DNA from: Actinomycetota bacterium
GTDB taxonomy: Bacteria; Actinomycetota; Thermoleophilia; RBG-16-64-13
Reading direction: 5' to 3'
Assembly (NCBI GenBank): GCA_016278725.1
Contig: JADQBG010000013.1
Location: 62,001 to 126,000, forward strand
DNA: 64,000 nt
Under the pieces are notes generated by a model, which was given only the letters and a program-made list of their open reading frames with translations, had not been told where the DNA came from and did not search any database. How positions within the stretch are numbered: the stretch's first letter is position 1; every line of letters begins with the position of its first letter. The position numbers and the translations under genes were made by a program. Below are positions 2,952 through 13,772 of the stretch, piece after piece.

Positions 2952-3983
2952 TTGAAGCGTCGCCCCTTCCCCCACTGGCTGACGCCCCTGGTCGACGAAC
3001 TCACCGCCGAGGTGAGAGGCGTGGTCGCCCCGCACCTGGGGCACAGCGGGGCCAAGGGCCTGGCCGGTCGCGCTGAGGGAGGAGACACCACCTTCTCCAT
3101 CGACGTCCTTGCCGAACAGAGGGTGGCCGCATTTCTCGAGGAGCGGCAGGCGCCCGTGGCCCTCTATTCCGAAGACCAGGGCCTCAAGACCTTCGCAGGC
3201 TCCGGGAAGGCGGAGTACGTTCTGATCGTGGATCCCATCGACGGCACTCGTCCCGCTGCGGCCGGATTCGAGGCGGCCTGCGTGAGCGTGGCCGCCGCCG
3301 ATCTGGGGGGACGGCCGCTCGAGGCGGCCGTCCCGGTGATGGGGGACGTGGTCTACGGCGTGGTCCACGAGATCAAAGAGGGCGGCCGGTTTCGGGCGGC
3401 GCGCGGTGAGGGCGTCGAGGCGCTCGACGGCGAGGGCGGCTCCCGGCCGCTGGCCCCTTCGGTTAGCGAGGATCTGTCTCGACTCTTCTGGGCGCTCGGC
3501 TTTCGCGGCCGGCCCGCCCGGGAGCTCACCGCCGTCCTGGGAGATTTGATCGATCTCTCCTCGGTAGATGGCGGGGTGTTCGATTTAGGGAGTGCCACCT
3601 ACTGCATGACCCGCATCCTCACCGGGCAGCTCGACTGCTTCATCGACCCGGGGCCCCGAATGATCGAAGTCGCCCCCTGGGTAGAGGAACGCTTTCGCCA
3701 GGTGGGGAAAGGAGCCGTGTTGAACAACGCCCCCTATGACGTGGCGGCTTCCACTCTGATTCTCGAAGAGGCGGGTTGCCCGGTGACAGACGCGACCGGT
3801 GGGAGCCTGCATGACCGGCCTTTGCTCGGTGCGGGCAGGGAATACCAGATGGCGGTGGTTGCCTCCGCCAACGCACCACTGCACCGGTTGGTCCTGGCAG
3901 AGCTAGAGCGCGGCTTGAAGGCCTTCTCGCTCGGGGGGCCGGCCGGAGGAATGCCGAACCCCCGGGAAGGGGCACGGGCATGA
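2952..3983 (+). CDS. Inositol monophosphatase-family protein
   Basis: Mg-dependent sugar-phosphatase fold, 343 residues. Motifs seen: a metal-binding Glu in ALYSEDQG, the DPIDGT signature in LIVDPIDGTRP, and APYDVAASTLILEEAG near the C-terminus, matching the family's W-D-x-A-A-G motif with Tyr for Trp. The segment after DPIDGT (RPAAAGFE) departs from the usual N-F-x-x-G, so the substrate may not be inositol phosphate. The TTG start follows AAGGAG with 4 bases between. The stop overlaps the start of the radical SAM gene (ATGA), so the two are translationally coupled. Confidence 0.82.
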   Translation: MKRRPFPHWLTPLVDELTAEVRGVVAPHLGHSGAKGLAGRAEGGDTTFSIDVLAEQRVAAFLEERQAPVALYSEDQGLKTFAGSGKAEYVLIVDPIDGTRPAAAGFEAACVSVAAADLGGRPLEAAVPVMGDVVYGVVHEIKEGGRFRAARGEGVEALDGEGGSRPLAPSVSEDLSRLFWALGFRGRPARELTAVLGDLIDLSSVDGGVFDLGSATYCMTRILTGQLDCFIDPGPRMIEVAPWVEERFRQVGKGAVLNNAPYDVAASTLILEEAGCPVTDATGGSLHDRPLLGAGREYQMAVVASANAPLHRLVLAELERGLKAFSLGGPAGGMPNPREGARA

Positions 3984-5008
3984 TCGCCGAGTTCTGGGAG
4001 CCCGCCGCAGGTGGACGCACCAAGTGCACGCTCTGCCCGCATTTCTGCGTGATCGACGAGGGCCGCGAAGGTTTGTGCAAGGTTCGGGGCACCCGCGGCG
4101 GCCGGCTCGAGAGCCTGGTCTACGGACGGGTGGCCACCGTGGTTTCGGACAGCATCGAGCGCAAGCCCTTTTACCACTTTCATCCGGGCACGTTTGTCCT
4201 TTCGCTGAGCACTCTGGGATGCAACGTGCTCTGTTCCGGCTGCAACACTTGGCAGCTCTCGCATGCCACCGCCGCCCGCGGGGCGGCGGAGAAGTTATCC
4301 TTCATGACACCCGAAGAAGCGGTTGCCATGGCCGAGAAGCACAAGCTGCCGGGGATCGCCTTCGCCTTCGGCGAGGCGGCCATCTGGGCCGAGTACGTCC
4401 ACGACGTCTGTGTCGCGGCGAAGGAAGCCGGCCTCTTCACCTGCTTCGTCACCGCCGGCTACATGAACGTGAAGACGCTCGATTATCTGGCCCCGCATAT
4501 CGACGCCTTCAAGTACGACCTCAAAGCCCCGGACGGGCGGGGTTGGGGATGGCTGACGAAGGTCGAGGATCCCGAAATCACTCTCGACATGGCGGTCCGT
4601 GCCAAGGAGGATCACGGATGCCACGTGGAAGTGGTGAGCAATCTGGTCCCCGGCATGAACGATGACGACGAGAGTCTGACGAAGATGGCAAACCAGGTGC
4701 TCGAGCGCTTTGGAGCCGGAACCGCGTGGCACGTGACCCGTTTTCTGCCCGAGTTCGAACTCTCGTACGTGCCGGCAACTCCGGTGAAGACACTGGAAAG
4801 AGCGGCCCAGATCGGACGCAAGGCCGGCTTGGAGTTTGTCTACGTGGGTAACGTCCCCGGCCATCCCGGCCGGCACACCGTCTGCCCGGAGTGCGGGCGC
4901 ACCGTGATCCGGCGCGGGGACCAGCGCGCTGAGGAAAACTGGGTCCGGGAGGGCCGCTGCCCCGACTGCGGCTTGGATCTGGGGATCGTGGGCGGCGAGA
5001 AGCCGTGA
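3980..5008 (+). CDS. AmmeMemoRadiSam-type radical SAM enzyme (PflA-like)
   Basis: Radical SAM protein of 342 residues. N-terminal Cys motif CTLCPHFCVIDEGREGLC, then the cluster-binding loop LGCNVLCSGCNTW (C-x3-C-x2-C), a PflA-like barrel, and a C-terminal rubredoxin-like knuckle with CPECGR and CPDCGL. This arrangement is that of the radical SAM partner of the AMMECR1/Memo system. Neither AMMECR1 nor Memo is in this window; the partner gene is an IMPase-like phosphatase that overlaps it by 4 bases. Reaction and substrate are unknown for the family. Confidence 0.85.
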   Translation: MIAEFWEPAAGGRTKCTLCPHFCVIDEGREGLCKVRGTRGGRLESLVYGRVATVVSDSIERKPFYHFHPGTFVLSLSTLGCNVLCSGCNTWQLSHATAARGAAEKLSFMTPEEAVAMAEKHKLPGIAFAFGEAAIWAEYVHDVCVAAKEAGLFTCFVTAGYMNVKTLDYLAPHIDAFKYDLKAPDGRGWGWLTKVEDPEITLDMAVRAKEDHGCHVEVVSNLVPGMNDDDESLTKMANQVLERFGAGTAWHVTRFLPEFELSYVPATPVKTLERAAQIGRKAGLEFVYVGNVPGHPGRHTVCPECGRTVIRRGDQRAEENWVREGRCPDCGLDLGIVGGEKP

Positions 5009-5144: not shown

Positions 5145-5582
5145 TTGGAGGCCGCCCGGCGAGTCGTTCTCACACTTCCGGCCAAAGCGGAGTACGTAGC
5201 CCTATCACGCCTGGCCACATCCGGGCTCGGCAGCGGATCCGACATGGCGGAGGACGTGGTGGAGGATCTCAAAGTTGCGGTCAGCGAGGCCTGTTCCTAC
5301 TTCCTCCGGGAGGCCCCCGCTGAGAGCGAGACGGACAGTTCATCCTCTCGACCGGACCAGGAGGCGGAGGAGCTTCGTATCGAGTACGAACTGGGGGACG
5401 AGGTCCTCCAGATATCGGTCTCCGGATGCAGCGATGTCAATGCTGCCGGGACCGTCGAAGTCGATCCTTTTTCAGAGTTTGGCCTGGGGATGACGATCAT
5501 CAGGGCGCTCGTCGACAAGCTCGAGCTTTCCGAAGCGCCCGAATCGCGCACGTTGCTCCGTTTGACCAAACGCTTGAAATGA
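5145..5582 (+). CDS. HATPase (anti-sigma/GHKL-type) regulator lacking the N-box Asn
   Basis: A 145-residue single-domain ATPase of the RsbW/GHKL superfamily, with no dimerisation or sensor domain. The helix that should carry the metal-chelating Asn reads AVSEACSYF, where anti-sigma kinases have AVSEAxTNA, so the Asn appears replaced by Tyr. A glycine-rich lid (GLGMTIIRALVDKLEL) is present. TTG start with AGGAG 6 bases upstream. Its stop overlaps the ATG of the LytTR response regulator (ATGA), so it should act with it. It may bind a partner without phosphorylating it; that is inference. Confidence 0.7.
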   Translation: MEAARRVVLTLPAKAEYVALSRLATSGLGSGSDMAEDVVEDLKVAVSEACSYFLREAPAESETDSSSSRPDQEAEELRIEYELGDEVLQISVSGCSDVNAAGTVEVDPFSEFGLGMTIIRALVDKLELSEAPESRTLLRLTKRLK

Positions 5583-6319
5583 AGGACCTCTACAGGGCTC
5601 TCATCGTAGACGATGAGCCCCCGGCCCGAGCCGAACTCAGGTTCATGCTCGCGCGCCACAGCCGGATCAAGGTAGTGGGGGAGGCCGGGGGCGCCGAAGA
5701 GGCCCTCGCGCTCGCCGAGAACCTCTCGTACGACGTCATCTTCCTCGACGTCAATCTGCCCGACATGGACGGCATCGAGGTGGCCCGGCGGCTGGCCGAG
5801 CTCGCCGAGCAACCCTACGTTGTATTCATCACTGCATATTCCGAGTTTGCGGTTCGGGCTTTCGAAGTGAGCGCCTTCGACTACTTGGTGAAACCGGTGA
5901 CCGAGCGCCGCATGGACCAGACGGTCAATCGCCTGCTCTCCACGCTCGATGCCACGCCTTCGGCGGTGGAGCAGGCCCCGAGGCAACTCGACCGCCTCCC
6001 GGTCAGCCGGGGCGACAAAACGGTTCTGCTGGACATGCAGGAGATTTTCTACTTCCAGGCTGAGGGAGACTACGCCCGCGTGTTCACGAACAAAGCGGGC
6101 TATCTGGTCAATTACTCCCTTAAATCGCTGGACGAGCGTCTGGATTCCCGTTCGTTCTTCAGGTGCCACCGGAGCTATATAGTCAATCTGCAGCATGTCT
6201 CGGAGATAATCTCCCTCCCCTCCAACCTCTACGAACTCAGGCTCGACGACGACCGGCGCACCGTGCTGCCGCTGAGCCGCCGGCAGACCAGGGAGTTGCG
6301 CAAGCGCCTCGATTTCTGA
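5579..6319 (+). CDS. LytTR-family response regulator
   Basis: Two-domain DNA-binding regulator of 246 residues. The receiver domain shows the acidic pair in VDDE, the phosphoacceptor Asp in VIFLDVNLPDMDGIEVA, Thr/Ser in FITAYS and the conserved Lys in YLVKPV. The LytTR domain (about 145-246) has FYFQAEGDYARVFT, SLDERLDSRSFFRCHRSYIVN and a basic end. The usual LytS-type sensor kinase is not adjacent; instead the preceding gene encodes a stand-alone HATPase that overlaps it by 4 bases. The ATG at 5579 is chosen over longer in-frame extensions because it starts exactly at the receiver domain. Confidence 0.92.
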   Translation: MKDLYRALIVDDEPPARAELRFMLARHSRIKVVGEAGGAEEALALAENLSYDVIFLDVNLPDMDGIEVARRLAELAEQPYVVFITAYSEFAVRAFEVSAFDYLVKPVTERRMDQTVNRLLSTLDATPSAVEQAPRQLDRLPVSRGDKTVLLDMQEIFYFQAEGDYARVFTNKAGYLVNYSLKSLDERLDSRSFFRCHRSYIVNLQHVSEIISLPSNLYELRLDDDRRTVLPLSRRQTRELRKRLDF

Positions 6320-6525: not shown

Positions 6526-8196
6526 CTAGTGGACGTCGGCGCCACCCGCGCCGCGGGGCACGCGCACACCTTCAACCATCTCTTGGATGTGCAGGGGCGG
6601 AGCCGGGGTTACCCGGGAGACCACGAAGGCCACGATGAAGTTCATCGCCGCACCCACGGTGCCGATACCCTGAGCGTTGATGTCGAAGAACCAGAGGCTC
6701 ATGTCGAAGAACTGGGCTCCGACGATGTAGAAGGTGGTGAACCCGAGGCCGACCACCATACCGGCGATGGCGCCCTCCCGGTTCATCCTCTTGTCGAAGA
6801 TACCGAGGATGATGATCGGGAAGAAACTGGCCGCCGCGAGACCGAAGGCGAAGGCCACCACCTCGGCCACGAACCCGGGTGGGTTGATGCCGAAGTACCC
6901 TGCCACGATGACCGCGCCCAGGATCACCAGACGGCCCACGAGCAGACGTTCACCCTCACTCGCTGCCGGGTGAATCAGCTTGTAGTAGATGTCATGGGAT
7001 AGTGAGCTCGAGATGACCAGCAGCAGTCCGGCCGCGGTGGAGAGGGCTGCTGCCAGACCGCCGGCTGCCACCAGGGCGATGACGATGGCCGGGAGGCCCG
7101 CCACCTCGGGGGTGGACAGGACGATGATGTCGCGGTCGATGGTGATTTCGCTGGTTTCCGGGTCGGCCGTCATCTCTAGGACGCCGTCGGTATTCTTGTC
7201 CTCGAGGCCCAAGAGGCCGGTTTCCGACCAGCTATCGACCCACTCGATCTCATTGACTTCCTCGACGCTCTTGCCCTGCAGTTCATCGATCAGGTTGTAT
7301 TTGGCGAACACGGCGATGGCCGGAGCCGTGGTGTAGAGGATGGCGATGAACAACAACGCCCATCCCGCCGAGTACCGTGCGGCGCGGACGCTGCGCACGG
7401 TGTAGAAGCGGATGATGACGTGGGGCAGACCGGCGGTCCCGATCATCAATGACATTGTCACCATAAACACGTTCAGACCGGATAAGTTCGTAAACGGCTG
7501 GGTGTAGTTGGTCAATCCCAGATCCGTCTGTATCTGATTCAGGCGACTGGTGATGTCGCTGAAGGTCAGAGCCAACTGGGGGATCGGAATGTCGGTCAGG
7601 ATGACCGCGATGGCGACCGCGGGCACCAGGTAGGCGATGATGAGCACCGTGTACTGCGCCACCTGGGTCCAGGTGATGCCCTTCATTCCACCGAGCACGG
7701 CGAAGAAGGCCACGATGAGCACACCGACGACAACCCCCCACTCGATGGACAAACCGAGGAAACGGCTGAAGACGATGCCGACGCCGCGCATCTGACCGGC
7801 GACGTAGGTGAAAGAAACGAACATGGCCGCGATGGCCGCCACCACTCTGGCTACGTTCGAGTAGTAGCGGTCGCCGACGAAGTCGGGCACTGTGTACTTT
7901 CCGAACTTCCGCAGGTACGGGGCCAGGAGCAGCGCCAGCAGCACGTAGCCGCCGGTCCATCCCATCAGATAGATGGCTCCGTCATACCCCAAGAAAGAAA
8001 TGAGACCGGCCATGGAGATGAACGACGCGGCCGACATCCAGTCGGCCGCGGTGGCCGCTCCGTTGGCTATGGCGGGAACGCCGCGGCCGGCGACGTAGAA
8101 ACCGCTGGTCTCCTTAACGCGGCTGGCGTACCCGATGTAGATGTAGCCGGCGAATGTCAGCCCGACCAGTAGATAAGTCCAAGCTTCAACAGACAT
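6526..8196 (-). CDS. Sodium:solute symporter large subunit (VC_2705 subfamily)
   Basis: Membrane transporter of the SSS family, 556 residues with about 13 hydrophobic segments. Typical SSS features are the N-terminal segment ADWMSAASFISMAG, the core GITWTQVAQYTVLI and LSTAAGLLLVISSSLSHD. The about 70-residue loop between two helices (ELQGKSVEEVNEIEWVDS onward) and the paired DUF4212 gene identify the two-subunit VC_2705 subfamily. Likely substrates are short organic acids such as acetate; the sequence does not prove this. The ATG follows AAGGGG and lies 10 bases after the small-subunit stop. Confidence 0.9.
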   Translation of the reverse strand: MSVEAWTYLLVGLTFAGYIYIGYASRVKETSGFYVAGRGVPAIANGAATAADWMSAASFISMAGLISFLGYDGAIYLMGWTGGYVLLALLLAPYLRKFGKYTVPDFVGDRYYSNVARVVAAIAAMFVSFTYVAGQMRGVGIVFSRFLGLSIEWGVVVGVLIVAFFAVLGGMKGITWTQVAQYTVLIIAYLVPAVAIAVILTDIPIPQLALTFSDITSRLNQIQTDLGLTNYTQPFTNLSGLNVFMVTMSLMIGTAGLPHVIIRFYTVRSVRAARYSAGWALLFIAILYTTAPAIAVFAKYNLIDELQGKSVEEVNEIEWVDSWSETGLLGLEDKNTDGVLEMTADPETSEITIDRDIIVLSTPEVAGLPAIVIALVAAGGLAAALSTAAGLLLVISSSLSHDIYYKLIHPAASEGERLLVGRLVILGAVIVAGYFGINPPGFVAEVVAFAFGLAAASFFPIIILGIFDKRMNREGAIAGMVVGLGFTTFYIVGAQFFDMSLWFFDINAQGIGTVGAAMNFIVAFVVSRVTPAPPLHIQEMVEGVRVPRGAGGADVH

Positions 8197-8206
8197 CGTC
8201 TACCCC

Positions 8207-8506
8207 TTACTCGTGCACGTCGAATTCTTTATCGATACGGTCCATCCAGCGCGCGTACACAAAGATCAGGATCACGAAGACTACGATCGATCCTTGATGC
8301 GCGAACCAGAAGGAGAGCGGCACACTAAAGAAGTTAATGTCCGCGAGCGGCTCCGCCAGAAGGATTCCGGCGACGAAGGAAACGAGCGCCCAGACCACGA
8401 GCAGGCCGATGATCAGAGTGATGTTCTTGCGCCAGTAGGCCTTTCCGGCGGGGCTGTTGTAGTCGTATGCCGCGCGTTCTGGCGGTGTTTGCAGATCAGG
8501 TTCCAT
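8207..8506 (-). CDS. DUF4212 symporter small subunit
   Basis: Small membrane protein with two predicted helices (ITLIIGLLVVWALVSFVAGI and HQGSIVVFVILIFVYARWMD) and the hallmark FPLSFWFA-like segment VPLSFWFAHQGS. This is the obligatory small subunit of VC_2705-type symporters. Two in-frame ATGs exist at 8515 and 8506. I choose 8506 because the run of five G ends 9 bases before it, whereas it abuts the first ATG. First gene of a two-gene operon. Confidence 0.88.
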   Translation of the reverse strand: MEPDLQTPPERAAYDYNSPAGKAYWRKNITLIIGLLVVWALVSFVAGILLAEPLADINFFSVPLSFWFAHQGSIVVFVILIFVYARWMDRIDKEFDVHE

Positions 8507-8863
8507 GAGAGGCATCCCCCTTAGACGAATCGAGGAGCTTCGCCGGAGCCTCCGGTATGGAAGCTTCCCCCCGGCGAGTGGGACCGGCTTTGGGCCGGTC
8601 CGGGTGATGGTCTGTCATCTACCTCCCTTCCGCCGAAGTCCGCGGGCCGAAAGTTGCAGGATGAAGAGAGTGTAGTGCAGAGGCTTCACCGCCGAGAATC
8701 CCGGCGGTTCAGTGGTGAGGCTGTGCCGACGAACGGTGAGAATTACCGGGGATGCGGCGGAGGCCGCCGAAGTCCGCCCGACGAATGGCCTTCTAACGGC
8801 TTTCTAAGGCCGCCTCTTCCTCCATGCATGGCGACTTTTGGCCCTTTTTGACAGAATGACCCC
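8507..8863. other. Divergent intergenic region with two hairpins
   Basis: 357 bases between divergent operons, with no credible gene. It contains a perfect 8-bp hairpin (8581-8588 with 8594-8601, loop TTTGG) and a smaller one (CCGGA/TCCGG near 8542-8555). Both would lie in the 5' leader of the symporter mRNA. The 14-mer CCGCCGAAGTCCGC occurs twice (near 8628 and 8766). Near the plus-strand gene, CAGAAT at 8852-8857 ends 6 bases before the ATG at 8864, compatible with a leaderless transcript. Confidence 0.5.
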
Positions 8864-10588
8864 ATGGCGACGTCAAACAAGCAGCAGGGGGAGGCGCCTC
8901 AGACACCGCTTGGCGGGCGTCTGGTGGAGCGAGCGCTGCAGGGTGAGCGTCTGGAGGCGGCGCTGGAGCGCGCCCAAGGACTCCCCCGGATCATGATCGA
9001 CCGCGAGGCCGAGATCACCTTCGAAATGGTGGCCACCGGGGTCTTCTCCCCCCTTACCGGCACACTCGGCCGCGCCGACAGCGAGACGGTTATCGAGCAC
9101 GGCCGGCTGGCCGATGGCACGCCTTGGCCCATCCCCCTTACGTTTGCTCCCGCCGGGCGGCGGAACCACGAAGTGATCGAGAAGCTGCGCGAGGGCGACG
9201 AGGTGCTGCTCGTCGGGCAGAACGGACAACCGGTGGCGCTGCAGCGGGTCAGCGAGATCTTCACCTATGACCGCGAGAAACGGGCGCAGCGGCTCTTCGG
9301 CACCACTTCTCCCGAGGTTCACCCGGGCGTGGACGCCATCTTCAGGCGGATGGGCGAACTCTCGATCGCAGGCGAAATCGAACTTCTCGACCGGCCGAGC
9401 TGGGGATCGTTCGAGCGCTACCGCATGACGCCCCGGGAGACCTATCGACTGTTGTATGAGGAGCGGGGATACCGTTCCGTCGCGGGTTTCATCACCGGGG
9501 CCAATCCCCCGCATGTCGGCCATGAGTACATGCATCGCACCGCCCTCGAGGTGGTCGACGCCATCCTGCTCCTGCCGCAGGTGGAACTGGAGCGGCCGGA
9601 GTACGTCAAACCCGAGTACCGGATCCAGGCGCTGGAAGCGCTGACAGACGTCTACTATCCGCCCTTCCGAGTGGTCATGTCGGCGCTCCGCACCAACTAT
9701 CTGTTCGCCGGCCCCCGCGAGGCGGTGCTCCACGCGATCATCATGCGCAACTACGGCTGCACCCACGCCTTGATAGGACGTGATCACGCCGGCGTGGGCG
9801 ACGTCTATGACATGTACGCCAGCCACCGCATCTTCGACGAATACTCGCCCGAGGAGCTCGGCATCAAGATCGTGGCCTTCTCGGAGGTCTTCTACTGCGC
9901 GCGCTGCCGCATGCCCGCCACGGAAAACACCTGCCCGCACGACACGCGCTACCGGATGCAGATCTCCGGCACGGGAATCCGCGAGGTGCTCCGCCGAGGG
10001 TTCTTCCCGCCCAAAGAGATCTGCCGCCCAGAGGTCAGCCACATTGCCATGCAGGGGGTCGTGCCCAGCGGCAGCGGCATGGGAGACGGTGCCAGACGCG
10101 GAGTCTACGCGCCGGGGCAGACCATCCACAGCCTCTTTTCCTTCTATGAGGTGGCGCACAGGCTGGGCGGTTATCTGCGTCCGGAGATCATCGGGGAAGC
10201 GTCCCTCGGAGAACGCGACCTCGAGGCGGCGTTGCTCGACGTGCGCAGCCATGCGGACCGGGTTTACGAGGCCGTCTTCGACGAGATGGCCGAAGCAGGG
10301 GAGACCAACCGCAGCCTGGCTGCCCGTTGGCGCACCGAAGCCCGCGAGATCCTGATCGACCACCAGGCCGATCTGCTGGCGCATCTCGAGGAAAAGCGGC
10401 GGTTGTTGCATGCCGGCGAAGGGCTCGATCAGTCTCAGGAGGGACTGGAGCGAGACATCTCCCGCGCCGAACGCGTTCTCGAGCAACACCCTCGGCCCCT
10501 GCACCCTGACGCCGTCCGGGCCCGCCTGTCCGATCCGGGCTCTCTCAACTGGAGCGCTGCCAAGGAAGGGGAGAAGGCGGGGGAGTGA
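8864..10588 (+). CDS. ATP-sulfurylase-like nucleotidyltransferase with altered sulfate loop and C-terminal extension
   Basis: 574 residues. Family hallmarks of sulfate adenylyltransferase: VATGVFSPLTG (56-66), LFGTTSPEVHPGV, the histidine motif NPPHVGH (214-220), GRDHAGVGD (305-313), the zinc-binding CARC...CPH (345-359) and ISGTGIREVL. In known enzymes the loop before the histidines is Q-T-R-N, whose Gln and Arg hold sulfate; here the four aligned residues are T-G-A-N (211-214). About 170 mostly helical residues follow the catalytic domain, which normally ends near residue 390-400. No APS kinase, APS reductase or DsrAB gene is in the window. It leads an operon with two CBS-type proteins. Family is clear; substrate is open. 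Confidence 0.8.
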   Translation: MATSNKQQGEAPQTPLGGRLVERALQGERLEAALERAQGLPRIMIDREAEITFEMVATGVFSPLTGTLGRADSETVIEHGRLADGTPWPIPLTFAPAGRRNHEVIEKLREGDEVLLVGQNGQPVALQRVSEIFTYDREKRAQRLFGTTSPEVHPGVDAIFRRMGELSIAGEIELLDRPSWGSFERYRMTPRETYRLLYEERGYRSVAGFITGANPPHVGHEYMHRTALEVVDAILLLPQVELERPEYVKPEYRIQALEALTDVYYPPFRVVMSALRTNYLFAGPREAVLHAIIMRNYGCTHALIGRDHAGVGDVYDMYASHRIFDEYSPEELGIKIVAFSEVFYCARCRMPATENTCPHDTRYRMQISGTGIREVLRRGFFPPKEICRPEVSHIAMQGVVPSGSGMGDGARRGVYAPGQTIHSLFSFYEVAHRLGGYLRPEIIGEASLGERDLEAALLDVRSHADRVYEAVFDEMAEAGETNRSLAARWRTEAREILIDHQADLLAHLEEKRRLLHAGEGLDQSQEGLERDISRAERVLEQHPRPLHPDAVRARLSDPGSLNWSAAKEGEKAGE

Positions 10589-10592
10589 GGCG

Positions 10593-11039
10593 ATGAAGAG
10601 CATATGCGCCTTTGACTTCGCCACCCTCGACTACCCGCGGGTCGGTTTCGACGACAAAGCGTTGGAAGCCCTCGAACTCATGGTGCAGTACGAGCGCAAC
10701 TACGCCATGATCGTCGAGGCCGGCGACATCGTGGGAGTGATAGAGCAAGGCGAGATCGTGGCGGCCTACGGGCGGGGTCAACTGCACACCGACACCCCGG
10801 TTTCGGCTCTCGCCCAAGACCGCCCGTGCGTCGATAAGGCAGCCAGCTTCGATGACGTCGTGCAGTTCATGGCGGCTTTCGACCTCTTCCAGATCTGCCT
10901 GGAGGATCGGGTGCTGGACGATTTCATGCTGCTGCGGGCGATCTGGACCGAACAGCTAGCGGTTGCCAAGGAGTTTCGTGAGTATGAAGCCCCCGCCGCC
11001 CCGATAGAGGAAGGCAGCTATGGCATCGGGTATGGGTAA
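10593..11039 (+). CDS. Degenerate CBS-pair-like protein
   Basis: 148 residues, starting 4 bases after the ATP-sulfurylase-like gene and overlapping the next gene by 20 bases. The pattern ALELMVQYERNYAMIVEAG, then IVGVIEQGEIVAAYG, then a second half with FDDVVQFMAAFDLFQICLE looks like two weakly conserved CBS motifs, without the usual Thr/Asp nucleotide contacts. A Gly/Tyr tail (GSYGIGYG) closes it. CBS pairs usually bind AMP, ATP or SAM and regulate a partner, so I infer a regulator of the upstream enzyme. I do not recognise a named family. Confidence 0.6.
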   Translation: MKSICAFDFATLDYPRVGFDDKALEALELMVQYERNYAMIVEAGDIVGVIEQGEIVAAYGRGQLHTDTPVSALAQDRPCVDKAASFDDVVQFMAAFDLFQICLEDRVLDDFMLLRAIWTEQLAVAKEFREYEAPAAPIEEGSYGIGYG

Positions 11040-11481
11040 CGGGACGGGAGCCCGCCGGGAGCAGGGCCGGCCCCCCCTGGTGGGAGAGTTGGCCACGGCC
11101 AACTACATCCGGGTTTCGCGCCGGCAGCGGGTGGTCGAGGTGGCGCGGCTCATGGCCGAGCGTTGGATATCCTCGGTGCTGGTCCTCGAGGCACGGCGAC
11201 CGGTGGGCATTCTGACCAAACGGACCATCATCAAGGATGTCCTGGCCCGCGGGTACACGGGCATGGAGTTGACCGCCGGCGAGATCATGCACTCTCCGAT
11301 CATCACCATAAGTGCGGACGCCGGCGTCGATGAGGCTGCGGCGATGATGGCGAGGACCGGTCTTCGCCACCTGGCGGTGGTGAGGGACGGCGAGCTCATC
11401 GGAGTGCTTTCGCACTACCACCTGGCCCCGATTCTGCCCGACCTGGTGCGCAACCGGGAGGCGGCCAAGCCCCAAGCCTAG
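11020..11481 (+). CDS. CBS-domain pair protein
   Basis: 153 residues with a well-conserved pair of CBS motifs: about residues 20-75 (VSRRQRVVEVARLMAERWISS then PVGILTKRTIIKDVL) and about 90-140 (IITISADAGVDEAAAMMA then GELIGVLSHYHL). No catalytic domain is attached, so it is probably an adenylate-sensing regulatory subunit. The ATG at 11020 lies 20 bases inside the preceding gene, and the tight three-gene arrangement ties it to the ATP-sulfurylase-like enzyme. Its TAG stop lies in a CCTAGG that starts a 13-bp repeat. Confidence 0.85.
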   Translation: MASGMGNGTGARREQGRPPLVGELATANYIRVSRRQRVVEVARLMAERWISSVLVLEARRPVGILTKRTIIKDVLARGYTGMELTAGEIMHSPIITISADAGVDEAAAMMARTGLRHLAVVRDGELIGVLSHYHLAPILPDLVRNREAAKPQA

Positions 11482-11512
11482 GCCCCAAGCCGAGGCCCCG
11501 CGCCTAGGCCCC
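11477..11512. repeat. Three 10-bp repeats at 13-bp spacing across convergent stops
   Basis: CCTAGGCCCC at 11477, CCGAGGCCCC at 11490 and CCTAGGCCCC at 11503 repeat at exactly 13 bp. The palindromic CCTAGG of the first copy carries the plus-strand stop and that of the third carries the minus-strand stop of the facing gene. Confidence 0.8.
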
Positions 11513-12334
11513 GCGCTGTTCCCGAGTGAGTCCCGTCACGCCCTCCGCCCAGCGCACGAAGTCTTTGAGCGCCCCTGCGATTCCTCCCTCGTGCGGCTGA
11601 AGGTATTCGGGGAACACCTCGAGGGTCAGCAGCCCGCTGAAACCCATGCCCAGGGCTCGGTCCACGAAATCTGCCAGATCCAGGTCGCCCTGGTCAAAGG
11701 GAAGATGCTCCTGGAATTCCTTCTTAGAGAAATTGGAGAGGTGGATGGTGCGGACCCTGTCCCGGAACTGGGCATAGGCGGCCACCAGATTCTCGCCTGC
11801 GGTGCCAAAGTGCGTGGTGTCGAAGGTCATGAACAGGTTCTGCTCTTCCAGCAACTCCCAGAGCTCGTCCCGTTCTTGGTAGCGGTAGGGTGACGTCGCG
11901 AAGGGCACCTTGATCCCGCGCCAACTCTTGGAACGCGGCATGTTCTCCACGGTGATCACGACGTCGCCACCGCCGACGGTTTTCTGGAAGTCGTCGACCC
12001 CGACCATCCAGCGGTGAAAGGTGACTCCGTCCACCGCCCGCTCGGGGGGATGGAAGGTCACGCTGCGGGCCTGGACGGCTCGCGCGACATTGACCGTCGA
12101 GATCAGAGAGGTCACCGGGCCGTCCCATCCGGGCACCGACTGAAAGGGGGCGTGCACGTTGCGGATGGGCATCGCGTAGTGACGGGAGAGCTCTATCAAT
12201 TTGGCGGTGGTTCCGGGGACATGCTCCCGGTTCACCAAGTACTCGAATCCGTCGAACCCGGCCTCGGCCGCAACCTTGAACTGGTCCTCCAGTCCGAGAA
12301 CATGAGCGCAGCCGCTTGAGACGATCAGTTCCAC
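11504..12334 (-). CDS. Sugar phosphate isomerase/epimerase-like TIM-barrel protein
   Basis: 276-residue xylose-isomerase-like TIM barrel (AP endonuclease 2 superfamily). Visible barrel motifs: EAGFDGFEYLV, the metal-site histidines and acids in VTFHPP, VVITVENMPR, FMTFDTTHFG and VRTIHLSNF, and LTLEVFPE at the end. Metal-dependent isomerases or epimerases of this fold act on many sugars, so the substrate is unknown. GTG start at 12334, 7 bases after the stop of the CBS-DUF294 gene, so both probably share a transcript. Confidence 0.78.
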   Translation of the reverse strand: MELIVSSGCAHVLGLEDQFKVAAEAGFDGFEYLVNREHVPGTTAKLIELSRHYAMPIRNVHAPFQSVPGWDGPVTSLISTVNVARAVQARSVTFHPPERAVDGVTFHRWMVGVDDFQKTVGGGDVVITVENMPRSKSWRGIKVPFATSPYRYQERDELWELLEEQNLFMTFDTTHFGTAGENLVAAYAQFRDRVRTIHLSNFSKKEFQEHLPFDQGDLDLADFVDRALGMGFSGLLTLEVFPEYLQPHEGGIAGALKDFVRWAEGVTGLTREQRGA

Positions 12335-12341
12335 AGGCGCT

Positions 12342-13772
12342 CTACAGGTGGAAATGGAATCGGAGGATGTCCGCCAGGTGTTCCACCGCCTTGAAGGCGC
12401 GCTTGAGATTTTGCCGTTCCCATTCCGACCATTCCTCGGGATAGACGAAATACTCGCTGTCTTTGCCGTGCAGCACCTGTTCGAGCGAGTCCTGGATCTT
12501 GAGCCTCAGGAAGAGTTCGTTGGCAAAGAGCAGATTCTCGGCGGATTCCTTTTCCAGGGCGCTGCTCTCCCGCAGCGCTCGGATCCGTTCGGCGGTCTGG
12601 GTCTCCCTGATGCCGTGTTCAATCGCCAGCACCTTGACCGAGGCCATCAGCGGCAACAGGCCGTATCGTTTTACGTTGATGCCCTTGCGGCCGTCGGGTC
12701 CCTTGTCGTACTGGAACCGTCCCAGGAAGTTGAGGGGAACCGGCTTGGCCACGGCGTCTTCGGCCAACGCGCGCACCGCAAAAGGCGCCCGCCCCAACTC
12801 GTCGATGGTGAAGTCCCAGAGCTCGCCGACATGGCGTGATTCTCCCTCGATGGCGCGAAGATCCAGGAAGATGGTGAGATCACGCAGCAGTTCCCCGTCC
12901 TCCATGCCGTGGATCATTCGATAAACTCGATTCTTCCACTCGGTCAGGGTGCCGAACCACCGGTCTTCTCGGGCCATGACACCACCCTGGCACAAGTCGA
13001 AACCGCACGAGTCCAGGTCCTCGTTCACTTCCTGGGCCAGCCGGCGGTAGTAGGCCAACGAGTTGGTGTCCGCGTCGTCGGCGACGATCATCCCGTTGTC
13101 CTGGTCGCCGCGCAGGACCTGCTCGCGACGGCCCTCGGATCCGAAGCATACCCAGGCGAAGGACTGAGCCGGGCGGCGCAGGTCGGGTCTAAGTTCCTGC
13201 TGGGCCAGACGGATGAGCCGCCGCGTGAGCGCATCGTTGTAGTCCGTGAGGATCTCGGTCAGTGATTGGGCGTCCACGTCCCCGAGGAACAGCTTGTGGA
13301 TGAAGCCATCGATCTCCGTACGGGTTCGGCACAGTTCTGTTGTCGACTGGGCACTGCCTATGCGGGAGGTGAGCACCTCCCCCTCGTAACCTTCCACCCG
13401 GATGAGATCCTTCATGGAGACGAAGCCCAGCAGCCGGCCGGCCCCGTCGACGACTACCAAGCGGCGCACCCGGTGGCGCATCATCAGGTAGAGGGCCTCG
13501 TACAGGTGGACGTCCGGCGTGGTGGTGATCAGAGGGCTGGTCATGATTTCCGATGCGGGGGTGCCGATCTCGCCCGTGGTGACGATCTTGTAGACCAGGT
13601 CGCGCTCGGTCACGATTCCCAGGGGTCGCTCGTCGGGATCGGTGACGATGACCGCCACCAATTGCTGGTCCCGCATCAACATGGCCATTTCCTGTGCGCT
13701 CATGTCGGCGGAAACCGTGCACGCCCGGGGAGACAGCACTTCGCCCACTCGGGCCTTGTAGAACAAGCCCAA
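12342..13772 (-). CDS. CBS pair plus DUF294 putative nucleotidyltransferase
   Basis: 476 residues: two CBS motifs (about 10-65 with PLGIVTERDLVYKI, and about 75-130 with LLGFVSMKDLIRVEG), then a DUF294 nucleotidyltransferase-like domain with CFGSEGRREQVLRGDQDN (about 205-222), then a helical DUF294 C-terminal domain. GSxGRxEQ...DQDN is the GlnD-like active-site signature, suggesting transfer of a nucleotide to a protein partner, but no substrate is known. The TTG at 13772 is the first start available and has no clear ribosome-binding site, so the true start may differ by a few codons. It is the fourth CBS-type domain protein within 3 kb counting the convergent operon's degenerate one as one of three neighbours. 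Confidence 0.85.
   Translation of the reverse strand: MGLFYKARVGEVLSPRACTVSADMSAQEMAMLMRDQQLVAVIVTDPDERPLGIVTERDLVYKIVTTGEIGTPASEIMTSPLITTTPDVHLYEALYLMMRHRVRRLVVVDGAGRLLGFVSMKDLIRVEGYEGEVLTSRIGSAQSTTELCRTRTEIDGFIHKLFLGDVDAQSLTEILTDYNDALTRRLIRLAQQELRPDLRRPAQSFAWVCFGSEGRREQVLRGDQDNGMIVADDADTNSLAYYRRLAQEVNEDLDSCGFDLCQGGVMAREDRWFGTLTEWKNRVYRMIHGMEDGELLRDLTIFLDLRAIEGESRHVGELWDFTIDELGRAPFAVRALAEDAVAKPVPLNFLGRFQYDKGPDGRKGINVKRYGLLPLMASVKVLAIEHGIRETQTAERIRALRESSALEKESAENLLFANELFLRLKIQDSLEQVLHGKDSEYFVYPEEWSEWERQNLKRAFKAVEHLADILRFHFHL

Follow-up and report, generated by a model that had tools for sequence, protein, structure and literature searches.

A conserved ATP-sulfurylase paralogue without the canonical sulfate-holding residues lies in a CBS-coupled gene cassette

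Introduction

ATP sulfurylase (Sat) is regarded as a single-purpose enzyme, and its fungal form carries a C-terminal regulatory domain that resembles adenosine 5′-phosphosulfate (APS) kinase (structures 1I2D and 1M8P). Here we analyse a Sat-like gene that is followed directly by two genes for CBS-type proteins, CBS1 and CBS2, in a 64,000-nucleotide stretch (the window) of contig JADQBG010000013.1 from an Actinomycetota bacterium (assembly GCA_016278725.1). We favour, with a probability of roughly 0.45, the reading that the Sat-like protein is a distinct and conserved ATP-sulfurylase paralogue, which would have kept the ATP/pyrophosphate site and lost the sulfate pocket, and that it belongs to a CBS-coupled cassette for the control of a monocarboxylate of the acetate type. 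The cassette probably serves a new regulatory function that does not involve sulfate.

The relevant active-site roles are described for A. vinosum ATP sulfurylase, in which Gln199 and Arg201 hold sulfate oxygens through their side chains and Asp237 is the pairing partner of Arg201; Asn202, His205, His208 and Arg365 serve pyrophosphate (as reported in PMC3779200). PMC11697783 describes Arg421, which precedes the first His of the human HNGH motif by four residues, as adjacent to docked sulfate. Among CBS proteins, AcuB binds adenylates and holds the ribose with an Asp in both sites (Asp52 and Asp122, as given in PMC13121692), and AMPK CBS2, which is without the ribose-binding Asp, does not bind nucleotide (as stated in PMC5535039). 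The P. fluorescens CrbS/R targets named in PMC5715377 include the symporter ActP and a cAMP-binding/CBS/nucleotidyltransferase protein. In the open-licence PMC literature, we found no paper on a Sat–CBS operon or on a Sat paralogue without the sulfate residues.

An ATP-sulfurylase core with altered loops

The Sat-like gene (8864–10588, + strand) encodes 574 residues with a PUA_2 domain and an ATP-sulfurylase core (residues ~14–399), both far above the Pfam cut-offs, followed by a C-terminal extension. The protein scores below all three listed NCBIfam cut-offs for sulfate adenylyltransferase (383.7 versus 387, 284.1 versus 322.95 and 234.4 versus 669). Its predicted model aligns with 8a8d over 374 residues with a Z-score of 46.5, a root-mean-square deviation of 2.0 and 36% identity. 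The extension, of ~175 residues, is predicted to be helical, belongs to no Pfam family and has no significant PDB profile match (best E value 0.04); the predicted local distance difference test (pLDDT) score of the model is below 50 over residues 403–419, 426–500 and 544–574.

We searched 61 genomes, comprising the window genome and 60 relatives, 18 of which belong to the same family. A long Sat-like orthologue is present in seven of these 18 (58–100% identity), the copy in genome G006 being split by a frame break, and no Sat match at E ≤ 0.001 was obtained in the remaining 11. Members of the class outside the family gave matches of 34–42% identity, most of which stop around residue 400. In a tree, the Sat-like sequences, including a piece from a sequence record outside this sample (L082, discussed below), form one clade with a support of 100/100 and a long stem.

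An alignment of the seven Sat-like proteins with 20 canonical sequences of the class revealed two altered loops. The RNP loop (residues 205–226, SVAGFITGANPPHVGHEYMHRT; 9476–9541, + strand) occupies the position of FQT-RNPxHRxHE in canonical Sats. Here, F[IV]TGANPPH replaces FQT-RNPxH in 7/7 Sat-like proteins with one residue added, and the Gln and Arg of QxRN, present in 20/20 canonical sequences, occur in none of the seven. The lid loop (residues 241–248, ELERPEYV; 9584–9607, + strand) stands in place of GxxKxxD, the Asp of which is conserved in 20/20 canonical sequences (the Lys in 19/20) and is Tyr or Phe in every Sat-like protein (Asp in 0/7). The Asn, both His residues of HxxH, GRDHAG and SGTxxR are kept in 27/27 aligned sequences. 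Read against the residue roles in A. vinosum, this pattern indicates joint loss of the Arg and its partner in the lid, with the nucleotide half retained. Loss of the predicted sulfate pocket, with retention of the residues expected to handle ATP and pyrophosphate, is therefore well supported by the alignment. The initial annotation had built on Sat chemistry as a consumer of ATP; with the sulfate-holding residues gone, ordinary Sat chemistry finds no support here.

Such a core would either move AMP from ATP onto a non-sulfate acceptor or read ATP/pyrophosphate. It is possible, and we put it forward tentatively, that the protein is a new AMP-transferring enzyme that evolved from ATP sulfurylase, with loss of sulfate binding and with a CBS protein fused or attached. 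It would then place AMP on a carboxylate, on some other metabolite or on a protein, and so act as output or sensor for a cassette that would control monocarboxylate use. A rather doubtful alternative is a catalytically silent Sat fold that serves as an ATP/pyrophosphate-binding sensor or as a scaffold for the CBS proteins and the regulator. This would fit an acceptor pocket that is gone next to nucleotide residues that are kept, the regulators encoded nearby, and the C-terminal extension and CBS fusion, which are features typical of regulatory proteins. HxxH, GRDHAG, SGTxxR and the new TGANPPH loop are, however, invariant in 7/7 Sat-like proteins, which resembles a re-specialised site rather than decay.

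Conservation and fusion of the Sat–CBS1–CBS2 triplet

CBS1 (10593–11039, + strand; 148 residues) starts after a gap of 4 bases and overlaps CBS2 (11020–11481, + strand; 153 residues) by 20 bases, as read from the window sequence, and both CBS starts are directly preceded by purine-rich stretches. The three open reading frames and their spacing are thus present as the initial annotation had claimed. Relative to a 92%-identical orthologous locus (L030), the ratios of nonsynonymous to synonymous substitution rates are 0.14 for the Sat-like gene, 0.24 for CBS1 and 0.27 for CBS2; because of these values, we regard all three as real genes under purifying selection.

The triplet is not confined to the window genome: six of the seven Sat-like bearers have it in full (the window genome, G001, G004, G013, G014 and G006), and in the seventh, G012, the contig ends inside the Sat-like gene. 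At the Sat/CBS1 and CBS1/CBS2 junctions of G004 and G013, start and stop codons overlap or the genes abut. In G014, the frame continues from the Sat-like gene into CBS1 without a stop, yielding 661 residues. The frame is likewise open from Sat-like to CBS1 in G006, downstream of an upstream frame break, where the start of CBS1 offers no ATG or GTG and a TTG lies nearby. Since related genomes keep these junctions or swap in start/stop overlaps, and two fuse Sat with CBS1, the adjacency of the triplet genes is beyond chance, and the linked unit proposed earlier is borne out beyond the genome in which it was noticed. The G006 locus (L036; G006:C1:2432000-2451500) comes from a 10-contig assembly, has both the Sat-like gene and the DUF294 gene described below split into two frames, and is without the LytTR gene; the splitting of both genes suggests that these breaks are read errors.

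We also looked for the branch in wider samples. The pattern TGANPPHxGHE occurs in 2 of 396 genomes of the phylum, both of the window genus, in a sample that included four family genomes. No Sat-like orthologue stood out among 369 Gammaproteobacteria, the best match being 41% identical with a canonical motif; QTRNP and the lid are kept in 30/30 of the gammaproteobacterial loci listed, in which motifs were read, out of 213 genomes with matches. A peptide-pattern scan of species genomes, sensitive to close relatives only, found solely the 92% relative, and viral contigs held no match for the Sat-like protein. Outside the family, CBS1 has five weak matches in the 396 phylum genomes besides the genus, and there is no Sat-like match within the DNA examined around these five loci.

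Sulfur-metabolism context

The window genome is 99.65% complete and has no match to PF01507 (the family of APS and 3′-phosphoadenosine 5′-phosphosulfate (PAPS) reductases), no second ATP-sulfurylase domain, and APS kinase and AprA matches below cut-off only. We considered sulfate assimilation in this genome and rejected it on the lack of PF01507, APS kinase or AprA above cut-off, CysN not having been searched there. Four of the 18 family genomes, all of them Sat-like bearers, have PF01507 matches above cut-off. G004 and G013 (L050 and L052) carry CysD with an adjacent APS kinase besides the Sat-like gene, the CysN-like neighbour in G013 falling below the TIGR cut-off. CysH-type reductases occur in G013, G014 and G006, the one in G014 just below the NCBIfam cut-off. 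G004 has a single PF01507 match, CysD, and hence no CysH; its PAPS may serve sulfation.

In G006 (91% complete) and G014 (64% complete), CysH is present and no CysD or canonical Sat was found. This is therefore evidence, in these two genomes, that the protein is still an ATP sulfurylase, or a user of a sulfate-like anion, which supplies APS with an altered loop, as would also agree with the Sat fold (Z 46.5 to 8a8d) and the kept adenosine/pyrophosphate residues. We nevertheless consider this unlikely, as the Gln, the Arg and the lid Asp are lost in all orthologues, no APS- or PAPS-using enzyme was found in the window genome, G004 and G013 have CysD and APS kinase in addition, and the G014 assembly is just 64% complete.

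Ligand motifs of the CBS-type proteins

Adenylate-binding CBS motifs have the form G-h-h-[TS]-x-x-D. CBS2 contains two CBS stretches that score well above the Pfam cut-off (78 bits), so that its designation as a canonical CBS pair holds for the fold; it does not hold for the ligand motif, as its halves have TKRT/TKHS/TKQT and SHYH/SDLH/SEGH at the Asp position and the ribose-binding Asp is absent from both in 5/5 aligned orthologues. CBS1 has a single CBS stretch of 23.2 bits, just below the cut-off of 24, in agreement with its initial description as degenerate; its first site is E-x-x-[EA], and its second contains no motif of this form (5/5 aligned orthologues). A profile of CBS1 matches CBS chains weakly across both halves; the structure model is poor (pLDDT 41.6), and an hhalign comparison of CBS1 with CBS2 gives a probability of only 28%.

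The initial annotation had proposed a nucleotidyltransferase complex tuned by AMP or ATP bound to CBS1 and CBS2. The conserved and partly fused triplet speaks for such a complex, as does the tuning of acetate activation by CBS proteins elsewhere (AcuB, as described in PMC13121692). We judge it very unlikely in this form, since the adenylate-sensing role given to the CBS pairs is not supported, the ribose-binding Asp being missing from all CBS1 and CBS2 halves compared (five aligned orthologues each). A different cassette protein, DUF294–CBS (12342–13772, − strand), combines DUF294, DUF294_C and a CBS pair in the window copy and retains both ribose-binding Asp residues (TERD and SMKD or SMRD) in 5/5 genomes seen. 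Because both Asp residues are kept there and absent from CBS1 and CBS2, the DUF294–CBS protein is, by its motifs, the better candidate for any adenylate sensing. In the reading that we favour, DUF294–CBS would be the adenylate-sensing arm, and CBS1 and CBS2 would be subunits with a structural or regulatory role, responsive to a signal other than conventionally bound free adenylates.

The cassette and its empty site

The triplet is embedded in a larger group of genes. A LytTR response regulator (5579–6319, + strand) is the first cassette gene and follows an RsbW-like HATPase_c_2 protein (5145–5582, + strand), the conserved left flank, which is present also without the cassette. Between LytTR and the Sat-like gene lie the large subunit of a VC_2705 family sodium/solute symporter (6526–8196, − strand; TIGR03648, 802 bits versus a cut-off of 320.75) and its small subunit (8207–8515, − strand; DUF4212/TIGR03647). 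Downstream of CBS2 follow an AP_endonuc_2-type TIM-barrel protein (11504–12334, − strand), which has a weak similarity to CbiR below the cut-off and lies 7 bases after the DUF294 gene, and DUF294–CBS itself, the last cassette gene. The conserved right flank is the large ORF13922 (13922–15907, + strand; the window copy matches no Pfam family), the 5′ side of which marks the cassette edge. Further upstream (2952–5008), a gene of the inositol-phosphatase family overlaps an AmmeMemoRadiSam radical SAM gene (TIGR04337, above cut-off), which family members conserve whether or not they have the cassette.

Sat-less relatives share the upstream inositol-phosphatase, AmmeMemoRadiSam and RsbW-like genes and, downstream, ORF13922. 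The AmmeMemoRadiSam gene followed by RsbW was found in 10 of the 11 Sat-less family genomes. ORF13922 comes directly after RsbW in all eight whose stretch reaches it, at a spacing of ~28 to 324 bases with the unmatched start of ORF13922 counted; in the other two of the ten, the contig ends before ORF13922. LytTR matches at E ≤ 1e-60 are present in six of the seven Sat-bearing genomes, G006 being the exception, versus 0/11 Sat-less ones. Because of this LytTR distribution and the 8/8 empty sites, we conclude that LytTR–(symporter pair)–Sat–CBS1–CBS2–TIM barrel–DUF294 comes and goes as a block. In G004, some LytTR-like direct repeats lie in the stretch upstream of RsbW.

Association with carboxylate uptake

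The VC_2705 symporter and its small subunit place a carboxylate-uptake system within the window cassette. A second setting is provided by L082 (NZ_CP081281.1), in which a Sat-like gene with ~50% identity, the C-terminal extension included and FITGAN kept, adjoins ActP (above cut-off), an ErdR-like regulator and a NahK/ErcS-like hybrid kinase (both below cut-off). This 16.7-kb record is labelled as a plasmid of Phaeobacter inhibens M650, has 56% G+C, is unannotated, contains several frame breaks and carries chromosomal-type genes (speE-like, MFS and LysR, partly judged by eye). L129 (G012:C148:1-4763), on a second G012 contig that may represent a strain variant, that is, another strain in the assembly, or contamination, holds a second LytTR copy and a VC_2705 symporter above cut-off and then an ORF13922 relative near DUF6049, below cut-off, without Sat, CBS or DUF294 genes. 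We treat the tie between the Sat-like gene and acetate or carboxylate genes as an association only.

The model that we favour would have the Sat-like protein working as a unit with CBS1, to which it is fused in two genomes, and with CBS2. The cassette would add the LytTR regulator, which would set expression, the DUF294–CBS protein and the TIM-barrel enzyme, plus the VC_2705-type symporter in genus g1, to which the window genome belongs; its most likely job would be to regulate the uptake or activation of a monocarboxylate of the acetate type.

Several observations weigh against this model. Among the stretches seen, genus g1 is the only one whose cassette includes the symporter. We found no LytTR-type direct repeats in the shared intergenic region upstream of Sat and the symporter (8516–8863) or, in G004 and G013, ahead of Sat. 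The Sat-like protein of G006 could be the only sulfate activator there, barring gaps in the 91% complete assembly. The L082 locus has no match for CBS1, CBS2 or DUF294, so the core can occur without them, and its label is doubtful, as the record may be mislabelled or a contaminant. The L082 copy without CBS neighbours would also suit an ordinary gene order shared by common descent, without joint function, as would the restriction of all seven genomes to one family with wider synteny. We regard this explanation as highly improbable given the start/stop overlaps, the in-frame fusion and the gain or loss as one block.

Comparison with known systems

On its Pfam domains, the Sat-like gene would pass as a "sulfate adenylyltransferase", and genomes that carry it could be mistaken for sulfate activators. 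A conserved branch with a predicted loss of the sulfate pocket, coupled or fused to CBS proteins and beside carboxylate-uptake genes in two settings, bears on whether the Sat fold has been taken over for a different adenylylation or as an energy sensor.

The Zn-type homo-oligomeric Sats of M. thermolithotrophicus (8A8D) and T. thermophilus (1V47) share with the window protein the fold of PUA_2 and catalytic domains, the zinc-type Cys/His set, HxxH, GRDHAG and SGTxxR. The window protein differs from them in its replaced QxRN and GxxKxxD, its added C-terminal helical extension, its CBS partners, and in coming from a genome in which no sulfate-assimilation enzymes were found. The fungal enzyme is alike in being regulated and in extending a Sat core at the C terminus, whereas the added part of the Sat-like protein has no APS-kinase match in Pfam and its partner is CBS-type. 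AcuB, a CBS and ACT energy-charge sensor of acetyl-CoA synthesis, is likewise a CBS protein, one that serves acetate activation, but CBS1 and CBS2 are without the ribose-binding residues that correspond to the AcuB pair reported in PMC13121692.

The CrbS/CrbR (MxtR/ErdR) acetate switch resembles the cassette in bringing together a symporter, a response regulator and a CBS/nucleotidyltransferase protein. The window differs in having LytTR and an RsbW-like protein, with no SLC5-type histidine kinase or LuxR-type CrbR/ErdR by the cassette, and the Sat-like gene is not in the regulon as described in PMC5715377. In L082, by comparison, a Sat-like gene stands beside just such a symporter and two-component set.

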